A stretch of 35,268 nt of DNA from an uncultured Eubacteriales bacterium (lineage in GTDB: Bacteria > Bacillota > Clostridia > Christensenellales > Aristaeellaceae), in contig CACWZI010000034.1 in assembly GCA_902765305.1 (NCBI GenBank), positions 1-35,268 of the forward strand. Reading direction: 5' to 3'. Below, piece by piece: positions 11,177-17,990 of the stretch (its first letter is position 1; each line of letters begins with the position of its first letter). The position numbers and the translations under genes were made by a program. Below the pieces are notes generated by a model. The model was not told the origin of the DNA and did no database searches. It worked only from the letters and a program-made list of their open reading frames with translations.

Positions 11177-13390
11177 TCAAGCGCCGTATCCCTTTTGCAT
11201 GATCACCTCAAAATCCTCTACGGGCATGGGCTTGTAGAAGTAATAGCCCTGCATCTCAGAGCAGCCCTGGCTGTCGAGGAATTCTGCCTGCTCTACGGTT
11301 TCCACGCCTTCGGCAATCATCTGCATGCCCAGCAGGCGCACCATATTGATCATGCAGCTGACGATCGTGCGGCTCTTTTCCGGATCGCCCGATGACGTAA
11401 GAAAGTGAAGGTCCAGCTTGATGCGATCCACGGGCACCTCCTTGAGCATGTGCAGCGAGGAGTAGCCGCTTCCAAAATCATCCATTTCCACCTGGAAGCC
11501 AAGATCCCTCAGCTTCTGGGTGGCTTCGATCAGGATATCGTGGTTTTCCACATAGGCCGTCTCGGTAATCTCGATTCGAAGCTGATCCGGCGTCAGGTCA
11601 TAGGCTTGAATCAGCCTGGAAAACTGCCCGGTAATGTCGCGACTCTCGTTGATGTCGTCCCTGGAAACATTTACAGAAACAGACCTGTGATGGCCCTGCG
11701 CGTTCCATCTGCTGATATCCTGGCAGACTCTGTCCCAAACGAAAGAATCCAGCTCATAGATCAGCCCGGCCTCCTCCAGCGTCTCGATGAAGCCCGCCGG
11801 CTGCAGCCAACCCAGCTTGCTGTGATCCCACCGGCAAAGCGCTTCCGCGCCGGTGATTTCGCCCGTTTCGTAATTGACCTGCGGCTGATACCAGACGCGA
11901 ATATCCCCGGACTCCATGCCTTTGGGAAGGTAGTTGATGATATCCGCGATGCGCTTTCCCCTTTCCCACTGTTCGCGGTTGTAGAACTCAAAATCGCCCT
12001 TTCTGTTCTCCCTGGCCTGATTTTCGGCCACTCTGGCCAGGTCGAGCATATGGTCCACGTCGATCTCTCGAAAGTCCTTCGGAGTCAGCACATAGATGCC
12101 GCTGCAGATCTGCACCCTGTTTTCCTTGCCCTGATCGATAAAGAAGTTGTGGACCGGTTCAAACACATTCTGTTCGTCCAATTTCGTCTGTTCGTCGTCC
12201 GAAATATGCCGCAGAACGGCGAAATGATCCGCCGCGACTCTCCCCATGGCCTCGTCGTCCGACAGGTTTTCCATCGATTTGCGCGCCCAGAACCTGAGCA
12301 GCTCGTCCCCGGCTTCCCGGCCAAGGCTATCGTTGATAAACTTGAAATCCCTGATATTGTTGTAGGACAGGAAATAGGGCGCGTCCGGATGGGCGCGCAG
12401 CAGCTCCTCCACCCGCTTGCGGAATCCATTCATGCTCAGCAGGCCGGTCAGGGAATCATGGTCGAGCATCTGACGTATCTTCTCATCCTGCTCCCTGCGG
12501 AAGGCTTGGATCCTCTGCCCTGCAATGACTGCCAGCGCGACAAACAGGAGCAAAACCAGGAGCAAAACCTGCCCGTGCTGATGGAGAAAATCGGACACGT
12601 CATACCTGTACAGACGCCGGGAGGTATAATCCAGAATCACCGCCTGCCTGCGGGTATCCGTCAGCAAGGCGATGCCCCTGTTCAGCCGTTCAATCACCGC
12701 CTGACCCCGGGGATTATCCAGCGTGCCCGCACGGAAATCCATGGAAAACACCGTCGAGGGCTGCACCGTCAAATCGCTGTACAAGGGCTTCTGCAGCACA
12801 TAGCTCCATACATAGGAATTGTGCAGAAGGGCATCCACCTCGCCTGCGCGAAGCGCCTGCACACTCTGCGGCATGTTTTCATATTCGAGAATTTCCATAT
12901 CGGGATAGAGCTGGTGCAGCGTCTCAATGCCGCCGCCCAGCGAGCGAAGCATGCCCACGCGCAGATGATCCAGTGGCGGCAGTGCCCGGTTTCCCTTCGT
13001 GACAAAAGTGAAAGGCGTTTGAAACAGGTTGTCCGTCACTGTGGTCGATTGTCCGGAGGCGCTGGTGATCGCGCTGCCAAGGGGCATGATGACGTCGTAT
13101 TCCCCATTGTCAAGGGCTTCCTTGATCGTTTCTTCTTCGATAAACCGGAATATCGCGCTATAGCCCGCATCGTCTGCCGCGAAGCGCATCAGCTCCACGC
13201 CGATGCCCGTGGGCTCACCCGTATTGGGATCCCTATAGAAAATGGGACACCGGTCAACGGGCACGCCCACCGTCAGCGCTTCCTTCGCATCACCTTCGGA
13301 AGAAGCCCATGCCGGCATGTCGAGAACAGACAGCGTTATGAGCAAGGCGCACAGGATTATGGCAGCATGCCTGATTTTTATTTCTCTCAT
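11177..13390 (-). CDS. Periplasmic-sensor GGDEF(degenerate)-EAL c-di-GMP phosphodiesterase
   Basis: A 737-aa membrane protein. A signal peptide (about 1-30) is followed by a bacterial extracellular solute-binding (SBP_bac_3) domain (about 37-265), a membrane helix (about 278-297), a GGDEF domain whose signature reads AADHF (about residue 387), and a C-terminal EAL domain (about 475-737). The EAL catalytic set looks intact: EAL in GAEALCRW, NVSRDD, EITETA, DDFGSGYSSL, KLD, EGVET and QGYYFYKPM. It should hydrolyse c-di-GMP in response to an extracellular small ligand such as an amino acid; the GGDEF part is probably inactive and regulatory. ATG 13390 keeps the signal peptide at the N-terminus. 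GAGG lies 13 nt upstream, rather far, so start certainty is moderate. A strong promoter lies about 200 bp upstream. Confidence 0.85.
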   Translation of the reverse strand: MREIKIRHAAIILCALLITLSVLDMPAWASSEGDAKEALTVGVPVDRCPIFYRDPNTGEPTGIGVELMRFAADDAGYSAIFRFIEEETIKEALDNGEYDVIMPLGSAITSASGQSTTVTDNLFQTPFTFVTKGNRALPPLDHLRVGMLRSLGGGIETLHQLYPDMEILEYENMPQSVQALRAGEVDALLHNSYVWSYVLQKPLYSDLTVQPSTVFSMDFRAGTLDNPRGQAVIERLNRGIALLTDTRRQAVILDYTSRRLYRYDVSDFLHQHGQVLLLVLLLFVALAVIAGQRIQAFRREQDEKIRQMLDHDSLTGLLSMNGFRKRVEELLRAHPDAPYFLSYNNIRDFKFINDSLGREAGDELLRFWARKSMENLSDDEAMGRVAADHFAVLRHISDDEQTKLDEQNVFEPVHNFFIDQGKENRVQICSGIYVLTPKDFREIDVDHMLDLARVAENQARENRKGDFEFYNREQWERGKRIADIINYLPKGMESGDIRVWYQPQVNYETGEITGAEALCRWDHSKLGWLQPAGFIETLEEAGLIYELDSFVWDRVCQDISRWNAQGHHRSVSVNVSRDDINESRDITGQFSRLIQAYDLTPDQLRIEITETAYVENHDILIEATQKLRDLGFQVEMDDFGSGYSSLHMLKEVPVDRIKLDLHFLTSSGDPEKSRTIVSCMINMVRLLGMQMIAEGVETVEQAEFLDSQGCSEMQGYYFYKPMPVEDFEVIMQKGYGA

Positions 13391-13444
13391 GGCTGATCGC
13401 CATCCTCTCTCAGCGGATGGATTTGACTGCATTTTAAGGCATCC

Positions 13445-13778: not shown

Positions 13779-14219
13779 TTACAGCGCGTCCACATCCTCC
13801 TGGGAGAGCGTTTTGACGTTGTTCATCTGGAACAGCTCGGCGGCCTTCTTGCCGTCGCTGAGCCGCAGGATCATGTGGGCCTCGCCGCCCTTGGAGGCGC
13901 GCAGGAACGAATACATGTACTCGACGGACAGCCCGGCCTTTTCGATCAGGCCCAGCAGCTCGCACAGGCCCAGCGGGCGGTCCGGCACCTCGGCGCAGAT
14001 GACGTGGTTCATCTTGGCGATATAGCCGTTGTCCCGCAGGGCAAGCAGCGCCGCGTCGGTCTGCTCGCTCGAAACGATGATGCGGATAATGCCGAAGTTC
14101 TGGGTGTCGGCCACGGACAGGGCCAGGAGGTCGACGCCGCCCTTGCCCAGCAGCTCGGTCATCTCCCGCAGCGCGCCGTTGTGGTTTTCGAGGAATACGG
14201 AAATCTGCTTGATAAACAT
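13779..14219 (-). CDS. Double ACT-domain amino-acid-binding protein
   Basis: A 146-aa protein made of two ACT domains (about 3-65 and 70-140). The first begins with IKQISVFLENHNGALREM and the second has AEVPDRPLGLCELLGLIEKAGLSVEYMY, both typical small-ligand-binding ACT patterns. Stand-alone ACT proteins of this kind are often encoded next to phenylacetate-CoA ligase and indolepyruvate ferredoxin oxidoreductase genes in anaerobes and are thought to sense aromatic or branched amino acids. It starts 13 bp after the PaaK-like gene stop, with AAGGAGGG ahead of ATG 14219, so the two are co-expressed. Confidence 0.85.
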   Translation of the reverse strand: MFIKQISVFLENHNGALREMTELLGKGGVDLLALSVADTQNFGIIRIIVSSEQTDAALLALRDNGYIAKMNHVICAEVPDRPLGLCELLGLIEKAGLSVEYMYSFLRASKGGEAHMILRLSDGKKAAELFQMNNVKTLSQEDVDAL

Positions 14220-14232
14220 CGCTCCACCCTCC

Positions 14233-15555
14233 TTAATGCAAATTGCGCTTGTCGATCACGCGCTTGGCCTTGCCTTCGCTGCGCGGGATGGACTTGGGGG
14301 CCACAAGCTTCACCTTCGAGGCGATGCCCACCACGGATTTGATCTGGTCGGTGATGTACTTGCGCACGTTCTCGATGTGGGCCACGGTGTCGCCGAACAT
14401 GTCCTCGGTCATCTCCACCTGCACCTCCAGCGTGTCGGAGGAGTTCACCCGATCCACCACCAGCATGTAGTGTGGCGCCACGCCGTCCGCGCCCACCAGC
14501 ACCGATTCGATCTGGCTGGGGAACACATTCACGCCGCGGATGACCAGCATGTCGTCGGTGCGGCCCACGATGCGACCCATCCGGGCCAGCGTGCGGCCGC
14601 AGGCGCACTTGTCGGCGGTCAGCGTGCAGATGTCGTGGGTGCGGTAGCGGATCATCGGCTGGCCGGTCTTGGTGATGGTGGTGAACACCAGCTCGCCGTG
14701 CATGCCGTAGGGCAGCTGCTCGCCGGTGGTGGGGTTGATGATCTCGGCGATGACCTGGTCCTCGTTGATGTGCATGCCGTTCTTCTCCAGGCACTCAAAG
14801 GCCACGCCGGGGCCGGAGATCTCGGTCAAGCCGTAGATGTCGCAAGCGTCGATGCAAAGCAGCTCCTCGATGCGCTGGCGCATCTCCTCGGTCCAGGGCT
14901 CCGCGCCGAAGCAGCCCGCCTTCAGCTTCAGGTCCTTGGCGGGGTCGATGCCCATCTCCCGGATGGTCTCGCCCAGGTAGGTCGCGTAGGAGGGCGTGCA
15001 GCACAGCAGCGTGGTGCCCAGGTCCTTCATCATCAGGATCTGGCGCTGGGTGTTGCCGCTGGACATGGGAATGACCATCGCCCCCAGCCGGTCCGCGCCC
15101 TGGTAGGCGCCGAAGCCGCCGGTGAACAGGCCCAGGCCGTAGGTGACCTGAACGATGTCGTCCTGCGTCGCCCCGGCGGCGGTCAGCGTGCGGGCCATCA
15201 TCTCGCTCCAGACGTCGATGTCGTTGCGGGTATAGCCGGACACGATGGGCTTGCCGGTGGTGCCGGAGGAGCCCTGTATGCGCACGATCTCACGCTTCGG
15301 CGAAGCCAGCAGGCCAAAGGGGTAGTAATCCCGCAGGTCGGTCTTTTCCATGAAGGGCAGGTACTTCAGGTCCTCCAGGCTGCGGATGTCCTCGGGCTTG
15401 ATCCCCGCGGCGTCCATCCGCGCACGGTACATGGGCACGTTCTCGTATTCCCGCTTCACGGTGGCCGCGAGGCGCTGGCCCTGCAGGGCCGTCAGCTCAT
15501 CCCGGCTGATGCATTCCATCGCAGGATTGTAGATCCTGTGGACTTTCTGGCTCAT
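14233..15555 (-). CDS. PaaK-like phenylacetate/arylacetate-CoA ligase
   Basis: A 440-aa AMP-forming ligase of PaaK length. The ATP-binding loop is SSGTTGKPIVSGYT; YGLTEISGPG is the adenylate motif A5; TDDMLVIRGVNVFPSQIE marks the hinge and C-terminal domain; the final basic segment includes PKSIPRSEGKAKRVIDKR with the likely catalytic lysine. The family activates phenylacetate, hydroxyphenylacetate or indoleacetate with CoA. ATG 15555 (MSQKVHRIYNP) is preferred over upstream starts because AAAGG lies 10 nt ahead. The gene lies 98 bp after the T-box-controlled acyl-CoA ligase, on the same strand, and just before the ACT gene. That gap contains a small inverted repeat (GTGGTA...TACCAC). The substrate cannot be fixed from sequence. 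Confidence 0.88.
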   Translation of the reverse strand: MSQKVHRIYNPAMECISRDELTALQGQRLAATVKREYENVPMYRARMDAAGIKPEDIRSLEDLKYLPFMEKTDLRDYYPFGLLASPKREIVRIQGSSGTTGKPIVSGYTRNDIDVWSEMMARTLTAAGATQDDIVQVTYGLGLFTGGFGAYQGADRLGAMVIPMSSGNTQRQILMMKDLGTTLLCCTPSYATYLGETIREMGIDPAKDLKLKAGCFGAEPWTEEMRQRIEELLCIDACDIYGLTEISGPGVAFECLEKNGMHINEDQVIAEIINPTTGEQLPYGMHGELVFTTITKTGQPMIRYRTHDICTLTADKCACGRTLARMGRIVGRTDDMLVIRGVNVFPSQIESVLVGADGVAPHYMLVVDRVNSSDTLEVQVEMTEDMFGDTVAHIENVRKYITDQIKSVVGIASKVKLVAPKSIPRSEGKAKRVIDKRNLH

Positions 15556-15653
15556 TTCAATCATACCTTTCGAAGTATATCGTTGTGGTAGCATTTTACC
15601 ACAGTATCAATTTCGATGTTTGTCTTTTGGGAAACGGTTGTGTAAATTTTAAA

Positions 15654-17288
15654 CTACCGTCCCACCTGCTCGGCCACCAGCCGCTTCGCGCCGTAGATCT
15701 CGCGGAGCTTCGGCTTTTCGATCTTGCCGGTGGGGTTGCGGGGCACGTCTGCGAAGATGATCTTCCGGGGGCGCTTGTAGCGGGGCAGCGCCTGGCAGAA
15801 CTTCTCGATGTCTTCCTCGGTGGTGGTCGCGCCGGGCTTCAATTCGATGATGGCCGCGGCGATCTCGCCCAGGCGGGGATGCGGCAGGCCGATGACGGCC
15901 ACGTCCTTGATGTCGTTGTGGGCGCGGAGGAAGTCCTCGATCTGCACCGGGTACAGGTTTTCGCCGCCGGTGATGATGACGTCCTTCTTGCGGTCCACCA
16001 GGTAGATGAAGCCCTCCTCGTCCCGCATGGCCATGTCGCCGGTCCACAGCCAGTCGCCGTGCAGCACCTCGGCAGTGGCCTTGGGATCCTTGTAATAGCA
16101 GGTCATGACGCCGGGGCCCTTCACGGCCAGCTCGCCCACCTCGCCCTGGGGAACGTCGCCCCCTTGCTCGTCGATGATGCGGGCCTGCCAGCCGTAGCCG
16201 GGGATGCCGATGGCGCCCACCTTGTCGATGTTCTCCACGCCCAGGTGCACACAGCCGGGGCCGATGGACTCGGACAGGCCGTAATTGGTGTCGTACTGGT
16301 GGTTTGGGAACTTCTCCTTCCAGCGCTTGATCAGGCTTTTGGGCACGGGCTGGGCGCCGATGTGCATCAGCCGCCAGGCGGACAGGTCGTAGTCCTTGAG
16401 GTTGATCTCGCCCCGGTCGATGGCATCGAGTATATCCTGGGCCCAGGGCACCAGCAGCCAGACGATGGAACAGTGCTCCTCGGCGGCGGTCTTGATGATG
16501 GTCAGGGGCTTGACGCCCTTGAGCAGTATGGCGCGCCCGCCCACCAGGAACGAGCCGAACCAGTGCATCTTCGCGCCGGTGTGGTACAGCGGCGGGATGC
16601 ACAGGAATACGTCCTTGTGGGTCTGGCCGTGGTGCTTCTGCTCCACCCTGCAGGCGTGCATCAGGCTCTCGTGGTTGTGCAGTATGGCCTTGGGGAAGCC
16701 CGTGGTGCCCGAGGAGAAGTAGATGGCCGCGTCGTCCTCGTCGCTCAGCGGCACCTTGGGGGCAATGCTGGGCTGGTTGGACGCCAGGTGCAGGTAATTC
16801 TCGGCGAAGGTCGGGCAGTTGTCGCCCACGTAGAACAGCAGCTTCACCTTGGGCATCTTGTCTATGCTCTCCTCCACGCGGCCGATGAACTCCGGCCCGA
16901 AGAACATGGCGTCCACGTCGGCCAGGTCCGCGCAATACTGGATCTCCTCGGCGGAATAGCGGTAGTTCATGGGCACCACCAGCGCGCCGGTCTTGAGTAT
17001 GCCGAAGTACAGCGGCAGCCACTCCAGGCAGTTCATCAGCAGTATGGCCACCTTGTCGCCCTTCAGTATGCCCCTGCTCATCAGCAGCCTTGCGCAGCGG
17101 TTCGCCTTTTCGTTGAATACGCTCCAGGTGATTTCCCGGCGGAATTCCTCGGAAGCGCCGCGCTCGATCAGCTCGTACTCCTTCCAGGTGACCCGGCGAT
17201 CCTCGCGCACCTCCGGGTTGATCTCCACCAGCGCGATCTCGGAGCCGTACTTTTTGGCGTTGTTTTCAAGAATCTCGGTAATTGGCAT
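15654..17288 (-). CDS. AMP-forming acyl-CoA ligase under T-box control
   Basis: A 544-aa ANL-superfamily ligase. It has the A3 loop YFSSGTTGFPKAILHNH, the A5 motif NYGLSESIGPG, the A7-A8 region LWTGDMAMRDEEGFIYLVDRKKDVI with GGENLYPVQIE, and the A10 lysine in NPTGKIEKPKLREIYG. It adenylates a carboxylic acid and transfers it to CoA; the acid is unknown (medium, branched or aryl). ATG 17288 is chosen because GGAGG lies 10 nt upstream and the frame ahead of it runs into the T-box terminator. A complete T-box leader precedes it, so expression should rise when a tRNA, probably tRNA-Tyr, is uncharged. T-boxes normally control aminoacyl-tRNA synthetases or amino-acid biosynthesis and transport, so an acyl-CoA ligase as first gene is unusual. 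Confidence 0.88.
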   Translation of the reverse strand: MPITEILENNAKKYGSEIALVEINPEVREDRRVTWKEYELIERGASEEFRREITWSVFNEKANRCARLLMSRGILKGDKVAILLMNCLEWLPLYFGILKTGALVVPMNYRYSAEEIQYCADLADVDAMFFGPEFIGRVEESIDKMPKVKLLFYVGDNCPTFAENYLHLASNQPSIAPKVPLSDEDDAAIYFSSGTTGFPKAILHNHESLMHACRVEQKHHGQTHKDVFLCIPPLYHTGAKMHWFGSFLVGGRAILLKGVKPLTIIKTAAEEHCSIVWLLVPWAQDILDAIDRGEINLKDYDLSAWRLMHIGAQPVPKSLIKRWKEKFPNHQYDTNYGLSESIGPGCVHLGVENIDKVGAIGIPGYGWQARIIDEQGGDVPQGEVGELAVKGPGVMTCYYKDPKATAEVLHGDWLWTGDMAMRDEEGFIYLVDRKKDVIITGGENLYPVQIEDFLRAHNDIKDVAVIGLPHPRLGEIAAAIIELKPGATTTEEDIEKFCQALPRYKRPRKIIFADVPRNPTGKIEKPKLREIYGAKRLVAEQVGR

Positions 17289-17303
17289 GATGCATTCGCC
17301 TCC

Positions 17304-17575
17304 AATAAAAATCCGTCCTCTGCCATCAGCAGAGGACGGTTGTGACCGTGGTACCACCTCTATTTGGCGTGGTCTTGCGACCGGCGCCCTCACGAAACGG
17401 CCTGAGGGCCATTTCTGCGCTGTATCGGGCGCGCCCGCCGCGGCCTACGCAGGCCCCAAGGCCCTTCGGTGCGGTGCTCCGGAGTGTATTCAGCCGATTC
17501 GCGCAACCGCCTTTCACCCGCCGACGGCTCTCTGATGCGTTGGAAGCGGCTTACTTGTCTCCCTCTTCGCATTAA
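17304..17575 (-). ncRNA. T-box riboswitch leader, likely tRNA-Tyr specific
   Basis: Reading the minus strand: GAAGAGGGAGACAAGUA opens stem I. The AGAGAG distal motif follows (plus 17528-17533 region), then an apical GGGUGAAA region. On the descending side is GAA-UAC-ACUCC, putting UAC (17488-17486) in the specifier position. The T-box core AGAGGUGGUACCACGGU is at 17361-17345; its UGGU would pair with a tRNA 3' end having discriminator A. A terminator follows: an 11-bp stem (17339-17329 with 17323-17313) and AUUUUUAUU. The leader ends 16 nt before ATG 17288. Confidence 0.9.
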
Positions 17576-17579
17576 TCGA

Positions 17580-17608
17580 AGTATATCATTTAATAACATT
17601 CACCGCAA
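17580..17608 (-). promoter_or_regulatory. Promoter of the T-box transcript
   Basis: On the minus strand TTGCGG (17608-17603), 17 nt, then TATACT (17585-17580). It sits just after the rsfS stop and immediately ahead of the T-box stem I, fixing the transcript start near 17573. Confidence 0.65.
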
Positions 17609-17627: not shown

Positions 17628-17990
17628 TCATTTGTCGACTTTGCTCTCGTAGTGCTCGTCGTTGGTGCCGTCCTGCCAGAGGCGCTCGATGTTGTAATAC
17701 TGACGCTCCTCGGGGTGGAAGATGTGCACGATCACGTGGGCGTAGTCCAGCACGATCCAGCGCGCGCCGTTCTTACCCTCCTTGCGGCGGGGTTCGATGC
17801 CCTCCTCGGCCAGATGCTCCTCCACGTCCTCGGCCAGCGTGTGTACGGACTGCACGTTCCGGCCGCTGGCGACCACGAAGAAGTCGGTGATGGAGGTCAT
17901 GTGGCCGACCTCCAGGATCTGTATGTCGGTCGCGCCCTTGTTGTCCAGAATACCGGCGATCTTCTCAGCCAATGCCTTGGAATCGATCAT
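17628..17990 (-). CDS. rsfS: Ribosomal silencing factor RsfS
   Basis: A 120-aa protein of the Iojap/YbeB/RsfS family. Typical features are ITDFFVVASGRNVQSVHTLAEDVEEHL and the conserved WIVLDYAHVIVHIFHPEERQYYNIERLW. It binds ribosomal protein uL14 and blocks subunit joining when nutrients are low. AGGAGG lies 8 nt before ATG 17990. It follows nadD-yqeK by 29 bp, which matches the usual nadD-yqeK-rsfS order in Firmicutes. Confidence 0.95.
   Translation of the reverse strand: MIDSKALAEKIAGILDNKGATDIQILEVGHMTSITDFFVVASGRNVQSVHTLAEDVEEHLAEEGIEPRRKEGKNGARWIVLDYAHVIVHIFHPEERQYYNIERLWQDGTNDEHYESKVDK

Follow-up and report, generated by a model that had tools for sequence, protein, structure and literature searches.

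The window analysed here, 35,268 nucleotides of contig CACWZI010000034.1 from an uncultured Eubacteriales bacterium (assembly GCA_902765305.1), contains a tyrosine T-box leader. It is flanked by rsfS (17628-17990) on one side and, on the other, by three genes of the same strand, which encode an AMP-forming acyl-CoA ligase (lig1), a PaaK-like arylacetate-CoA ligase and a protein with a pair of ACT domains. Quite probably, this leader is a tyrosine-specific attenuator through which uncharged tRNA-Tyr induces an operon for aryl-acid salvage, and the ligases, the indolepyruvate ferredoxin oxidoreductase IorAB and an aminotransferase rebuild tyrosine from aryl acids. Established T-box biology and the sequence of the leader stand behind the regulatory part of this explanation; its enzymatic part is drawn from operon context and from the gene families involved.

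T-boxes raise expression when the cognate tRNA is uncharged. Upon binding of uncharged tRNA-Tyr, the leader would take its antiterminator form, and the operon would be transcribed. Lig1 and the PaaK-like enzyme would then use ATP to make aryl-acyl-CoA from aryl acids, of which 4-hydroxyphenylacetate is the most likely and phenylacetate another probable one. IorAB, whose genes lie apart from the operon in this genome but within it in relatives, would add CO2 to the aryl-acyl-CoA with reduced ferredoxin, and the resulting aryl-pyruvate would be converted to tyrosine by an aminotransferase. The aryl acids are probably imported by a Na+/solute symporter under a tyrosine T-box of its own, and free amino acid may modulate the ligase through the ACT protein.

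The leader and the genes downstream

A complete, full-length T-box leader was found on the minus strand by cmscan (RF00230, model positions 1-219; 99.1 bits against a gathering score of 93; E 7e-21). In the covariance alignment, the specifier position was occupied by UAC, a tyrosine codon, directly 3' of UGAA (context UGAA-UAC-A). A sequence-only reading of this DNA had described a complete T-box with GAA-UAC-ACUCC before the ligase, and this description was exact; a non-aromatic specifier codon, which that reading had named as speaking against it, was not what the alignment gave. The T-box core was GGUGGUACCACGG, in which the antiterminator bulge UGGU was recognised both by direct reading and in the aligned core. 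The attenuator terminator consisted of a 12-pair stem (CCGTCCTCTGC-TGATG-GCAGAGGACGG) followed by ATTTTT, and the fold of 66 nt had a minimum free energy of -27.5 kcal/mol (z -4.30). The leader thus contained both the UGGN antiterminator and the competing terminator that characterise the T-box class. The promoter-like sequence TTGCGG-17-TATACT, read directly just 5' of the T-box, was not reported by the consensus promoter scan; two close relatives, L064 and L065, have TTGCGA-17-TATAAT at the same place. Judged by its sequence, the window T-box is a terminator-type tyrosine attenuator, which would respond to uncharged tRNA-Tyr.

The gene content, order and coordinates that the sequence-only reading had given for the three downstream genes were also right, with a start likelier than that of the longest open reading frame (ORF) assigned to the PaaK-like gene (Table 1). 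The solved structures nearest to the PaaK-like protein are phenylacetate-CoA ligases, and no other gene of the genome matched TIGR02155 at E<=1e-40. The ACT_8 match of the third protein met the gathering cut-off and covered residues 1-143, including both ACT domains. Downstream of the ACT gene, on the same strand (11177-13432), a protein with SBP_bac_3 (solute-binding), GGDEF and EAL domains is encoded.

Table 1. Positions of the T-box leader, its flanking signals and the downstream genes in the window
Feature	Coordinates	Strand	Basis
Promoter-like TTGCGG-17-TATACT	17580..17608	-	direct reading; position kept in L064 and L065
T-box leader RF00230, specifier UAC at 17488-17486, UGGU at 17356-17353	17329..17576	-	cmscan, 99.1 bits
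Intrinsic terminator of the attenuator, 12-pair stem, T-rich tail	17313..17339	-	terminator scan and fold, z -4.30
lig1, AMP-forming acyl-CoA ligase, predicted aryl-acid:CoA ligase	15654..17288	-	PF00501 237.7 bits, PF13193 52.1 bits; substrate suggested by operon context
PaaK-like arylacetate-CoA ligase, likelier start ATG 15555	14233..15594 (longest ORF)	-	PF14535 112.5 bits
ACT-domain pair protein, possible amino-acid sensor	13779..14219	-	PF19571 (ACT_8) 81.5 bits, cut-off 23.5

Relatives of lig1 and their operons

At E<=1e-100, lig1 was found in 39 of the 248 genomes of the order that were searched, its own included, and the orthologues in the others were 61-78% identical to it. The 30 best of these loci, the window among them, formed an order-level set. 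A scan of GTDB genomes gave at least 591 lig1 relatives, of which the best 80 named loci were used; these belonged mostly to Clostridia, for example Lachnospiraceae, Ruminococcus and Blautia, and Blautia schinkii and Ruminococcus flavefaciens were among the listed lig1 carriers. Among the matches listed, many relatives were recorded from ruminant gut sites, and the two closest (92% and 91%) were metagenome-assembled genomes, one from roe deer jejunum, that share with the window the order nadD-rsfS-lig1-paaK-ACT and the tyrosine T-box.

A T-box core was detected upstream of lig1 in 6/30 order-level loci (window included) and 5/80 named loci. The comparison proposed by the sequence-only reading showed that other genomes place a tyrosine T-box before this ligase: the specifier was UAC in all 10 readable leaders, the window included, and none read phenylalanine, tryptophan or another amino acid. 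The eleventh leader, in L135, was cut at a contig end. The leaders of five relatives (L064, L067, L089, L145 and L148) scored 92.9-125.1 bits with the covariance model, that of L089 lying just under the gathering score; for four others (L047, L053, L058 and L065), UAC was read by motif and alignment. The cores in L144 and L147 came from the scan of wider loci described below, and that in L148 from the order-level core scan with a covariance check. When a looser core pattern was run on all 110 lig1 loci, no leaders were added; hits 681 and 765 bases upstream of lig1 in L038 and L107 were not counted, nor were cores away from lig1 in the named and wider loci. A T-box hinted at by GAATACA in L038/L149 was dropped, the sequence holding no leader. 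In a tree of the 110 lig1 proteins built by a quick method, the T-box label required at least five changes, of which the strongly supported branches force only one; the label was scored on 104 rows (11 with and 93 without a T-box), six rows being omitted for short upstream sequence.

Gene neighbourhoods were studied in a wider set of 20 lig1 loci, six with a T-box or a suspected T-box and 14 others. In 9 of the 20, lig1 leads a same-strand series iorA-iorB-paaK-ACT. Three of these operons carry the tyrosine T-box: in L144 and L147 the order is T-box, lig1, SSS-family symporter, iorA, iorB, paaK and ACT, and L148 has the same order without the symporter. The other six (L154, L155, L158, L159, L160 and L162) have no T-box core. 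The symporter, placed between lig1 and iorA, was present in three of the nine operons (L144, L147, where it was matched in two pieces, and L162); in L150, a symporter lies directly 5' of lig1. In all nine of these operons, which come from genomes of the taxonomic order, paaK is followed by a relative of the ACT protein (34-42% identity). Among the 80 named loci, iorA and/or iorB was found in 15 flanks, and at least one of iorA, iorB, paaK, ACT and SSS genes in 24; L089 has the tyrosine T-box, lig1 and then iorA at the contig end. Where module genes adjoin lig1, they are iorA, iorB, paaK, ACT and one symporter. The salvage wiring through IorAB, which the sequence-only reading had put forward from the window, thus gained support from the full operon under a tyrosine T-box in two genomes and from all of it except the symporter in a third.

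These operons also bear on how far the T-box reaches in the window. It was considered unlikely that it governs lig1 alone, with paaK and ACT outside the tyrosine response under a promoter of their own in the lig1-paaK gap. The gap, 98 bp up to the ATG at 15555, is AT-rich and contains a perfect palindrome, TGTGGTAGCATTTTACCACA (TGTGGTA-N6-TACCACA, 15584-15603), for which shuffles of the window led one to expect 0.08 matches at two or fewer mismatches; both features would suit a separate promoter. As an operator of paaK, the palindrome was rejected: it is lacking in the same gap of L064 and L065, and its near-matches in the genome were not in excess (5, against 6 per strand for the reversed control). 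A scan of the gap gave no consensus promoter or terminator, a result compatible both with a separate paaK promoter and with none, and in L144, L147 and L148 a single T-box precedes lig1 as well as paaK and ACT. In the window, paaK is probably co-transcribed with lig1.

That the operon has two ligases points to two substrates. Our best guess is 4-hydroxyphenylacetate for lig1, because every readable lig1 leader reads tyrosine, and phenylacetate for the PaaK-like enzyme. It is possible, with a clearly lower probability than the tyrosine salvage explanation, that the operon is under tyrosine control and the PaaK-like protein is a true arylacetate ligase, with lig1 activating another acid, such as an aryl-propionate, indoleacetate or another carboxylate. 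The presence of two ligases would fit this, as would the lig1 stretch PLYHTGAKMHW, which is invariant and differs from what FadD13 and 4-coumarate ligase have in the alignment, and the 10 of 20 wider loci in which lig1 has no adjoining module genes. The solved structures closest to lig1 in sequence (FadD13, FadD5, a fatty-acyl-CoA synthase, feruloyl-CoA synthetase and 4-coumarate ligases) point the same way. Against it stand the tyrosine T-box directly before lig1 in 10/10 readable leaders and the 9 of 20 wider loci in which lig1 heads an iorAB operon.

Pathway genes in the genome and parallel T-box-ligase pairs

The rest of the window genome was searched for iorAB, as the sequence-only reading had proposed, and the genes were found. 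Candidate genes for arylacetate:CoA ligase, indolepyruvate oxidoreductase and aminotransferase are all present, and it appears from these matches that every part of an aryl-acid salvage route exists in this genome, dispersed over contigs. Across the order, IorA (TIGR03336, E<=1e-100) was matched in 38/39 genomes with lig1 and in 98/209 without it (Fisher p 1.7e-10, relatedness of the genomes being ignored); the sole lig1 genome without IorA, G104, is 88% complete. IorA matches above the TIGR03336 cut-off were found in 123/248 genomes. In the window genome, 17 RF00230 matches were obtained at E<=0.001, 6 of them above the gathering score, and tyrosine was read in the window leader, in a leader before an aminotransferase-tyrS pair and, after one extra base, in a leader before an SSS symporter (L001). 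In the second of these loci (contig C3, L006), the aminotransferase resembles MocR-type regulators in their catalytic part. The genes for a TrpB-like enzyme and a TrpX-type binding protein, together with trpD (C99 L008, C14 L007 and C40 L016), also have T-boxes upstream, which apparently make up a tryptophan (UGG) set.

The gap in aromatic biosynthesis that the sequence-only reading had suggested looking for was not there: the genome has TyrA as well as two PheA-type genes, and salvage would therefore be added to de novo synthesis. Nor could salvage be regarded as a general substitute for a lost tyrosine pathway, since prephenate dehydrogenase (PF02153, E<=1e-10) was matched in 31/39 lig1 genomes and not in the remaining 8.

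A number of findings, the de novo genes among them, weigh against the salvage explanation. The first group concerns conservation. No T-box core was found upstream of lig1 in 24/30 order-level and 75/80 named loci (99/110 in all, window included); six of the core-less loci have fewer than 300 bases upstream, and degenerate leaders could escape the pattern. Module genes are absent beside lig1 in the 10 wider loci mentioned above and in 56/80 named loci, many of whose flanks are cut by contig ends. For the sequence-only reading, genomes that keep the ligase but lack the T-box and have unrelated genes around it would have spoken against it. This is partly the case, as these loci show; where module genes do adjoin lig1, they are those of the predicted pathway. 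Among relatives with T-box loci in the wider set, three of five have the pathway and two do not (L145, whose contig ends 1.9 kb past lig1, and L146, whose contig does not end there). The lig1-paaK adjacency was seen only in the window among the 30 order-level loci (1.5-kb flanks); the two close relatives keep it.

The second group concerns the enzymes and the genome. The solved relatives of lig1, fatty-acyl as well as aryl ligases, do not fix its substrate. The PaaK-like protein scored 545.7 bits with TIGR02155, under the equivalog cut-off of 646.3, and was named PaaK-like rather than PaaK for this reason. The iorAB genes are on another contig (C50), an apparent frameshift divides IorA between two frames (pieces of 542.4 and 124.3 bits, each under the TIGR03336 cut-off of 650.9), and the genome-wide RF00230 search detected no T-box there. 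At this locus (L030:6908-9627), the two IorA pieces are followed by IorB and then by an ORF with a BrnT-toxin match. In both symporter leaders (GAAU-UAC-C in L001 and GAAA-UAC-A in its counterpart L150), the reading of UAC requires an extra base, and L001 could alternatively be read as UUA or AUU; tyrosine was preferred for L001 because of the L150 counterpart and the operons. The contamination of the draft genome was estimated at 3.47%, so contigs C12, C50, C70 and C134 may not all belong to it.

T-boxes reading other amino acids were found beside comparable ligases. On contig C134 (L012 and L026) of the window genome, an isoleucine T-box (AUC) precedes a gene for an HTH-cupin-AMP-ligase fusion, which is divergent from a four-subunit 2-oxoacid:ferredoxin oxidoreductase. 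At E<=1e-60, cupin-ligase matches were obtained in 123/248 genomes; the weaker matches covered just the ligase domain. Among the 30 best loci (L164-L193, counting that of the window genome), 27 had a T-box core upstream, and all 26 leaders that were readable by eye had AUC; that of L172 was masked, and L185, L191 and L193 had no core. The strict core pattern missed these isoleucine leaders (0/30), and the 27 were caught with the looser pattern. Of 14 wider loci drawn from the 30, seven (L201, L202, L203, L205, L206, L207 and L211) contain tandem cupin-ligases. A separate valine (GUA) T-box stands before the second copy in six of them, supported by covariance alignments for L202 and L211; a second core was not found in L201. 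Oxidoreductase genes adjoin the cupin-ligases in 6/14 wider loci (L201, L202, L203, L204, L207 and L211). In L202 and on contig C70 of the window genome (L003 and L214), a leucine T-box (CUC) is followed by a LeuA-like gene and then by a gene in which an AMP-forming ligase is fused to a xylose-isomerase-like TIM barrel.

On these grounds, it seems fairly probable that T-boxes in anaerobic Clostridia form a code for carboxylic-acid salvage, in which the specifier names the amino acid made and hence the acid activated by the CoA ligase. UAC before lig1 would stand for aryl acids, AUC and GUA before the tandem cupin-ligases for 2-methylbutyrate and isobutyrate, and CUC before the LeuA-like gene and TIM-barrel-ligase fusion for isovalerate, each followed by reductive carboxylation by a ferredoxin oxidoreductase. 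If this is true, the leaders can reveal the substrates of ligases to which none could otherwise be assigned, as well as the direction in which reversible 2-oxoacid oxidoreductases run.

The direction is the point at issue in the last alternative. IorAB is reversible and works oxidatively in peptide fermenters, and phenylacetate and 4-hydroxyphenylacetate are excreted by many anaerobes. It could be supposed from this background that aromatic amino acids are deaminated, that IorAB oxidises the aryl-pyruvates to aryl-acyl-CoA and that the aryl acid is released. None of the computed results favoured such a fermentative direction, and it was considered very improbable. Induction on uncharged tRNA-Tyr has the wrong sign for the breakdown of tyrosine, and the polarity of the T-box therefore argues against it. 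The ligases are AMP-forming (PF00501) and suited to activation, a Na+ symporter is present in 3/9 operons, and the isoleucine, valine and leucine counterparts likewise join T-boxes to ligases. It is difficult to tell from sequence which acid an acyl-CoA ligase uses, or in which direction an indolepyruvate or branched-chain oxidoreductase runs. Under the tyrosine salvage explanation, a T-box upstream gives both, the codon pointing to the product and induction by uncharged tRNA to a biosynthetic flux. From this explanation one can also predict which gut bacteria may be consumers of aryl acids, for example 4-hydroxyphenylacetate, rather than producers.

Comparison with known systems

T-box control of tyrosine genes, the aryl-acid route and rumen synthesis from acids are each known from the sources cited below. 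For T-box control of phenylacetate-CoA-type ligases, no report was found in the literature searched, two major T-box surveys lying outside it; absence from print is not claimed, and priority is not settled.

According to the survey PMC2494555, tyrosine T-boxes occur on tyrS, on the tyrosine biosynthesis operon of the Bacillus cereus group and on an NhaC-family transporter. The leaders described here share with them the RNA class, the terminator-type architecture, the tyrosine specifier and the logic of induction by uncharged tRNA. Unlike them, the leaders of the window and its relatives would govern carboxylic-acid:CoA ligases and an iorAB salvage operon; 'CoA' is absent from the main text of that survey.

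In Methanococcus maripaludis, aromatic amino acids can also be made from aryl acids, by a second route that uses an indolepyruvate oxidoreductase (Porat et al., cited in PMC4162585). Aryl-acid precursors and an oxidoreductase of this type are common to that route and to the one proposed here. The present system differs in being bacterial and in having two AMP-forming ligases, an ACT protein, sometimes a symporter in the operon and putative RNA control by tRNA-Tyr.

In the rumen, 2-methylbutyrate is converted to isoleucine, isobutyrate to valine and phenylacetate to phenylalanine (PMC7356843), and the chemistry and a similar habitat are common to that case and to ours. Judging from their leaders and gene families, related bacteria appear to join comparable T-boxes, specific for other amino acids, to enzymes that likewise activate acids. 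The rumen work describes the physiology of mixed cultures, whereas the present analysis offers candidate genes and amino-acid-specific regulation for the synthesis of amino acids by rumen microbes from branched-chain and aryl acids.

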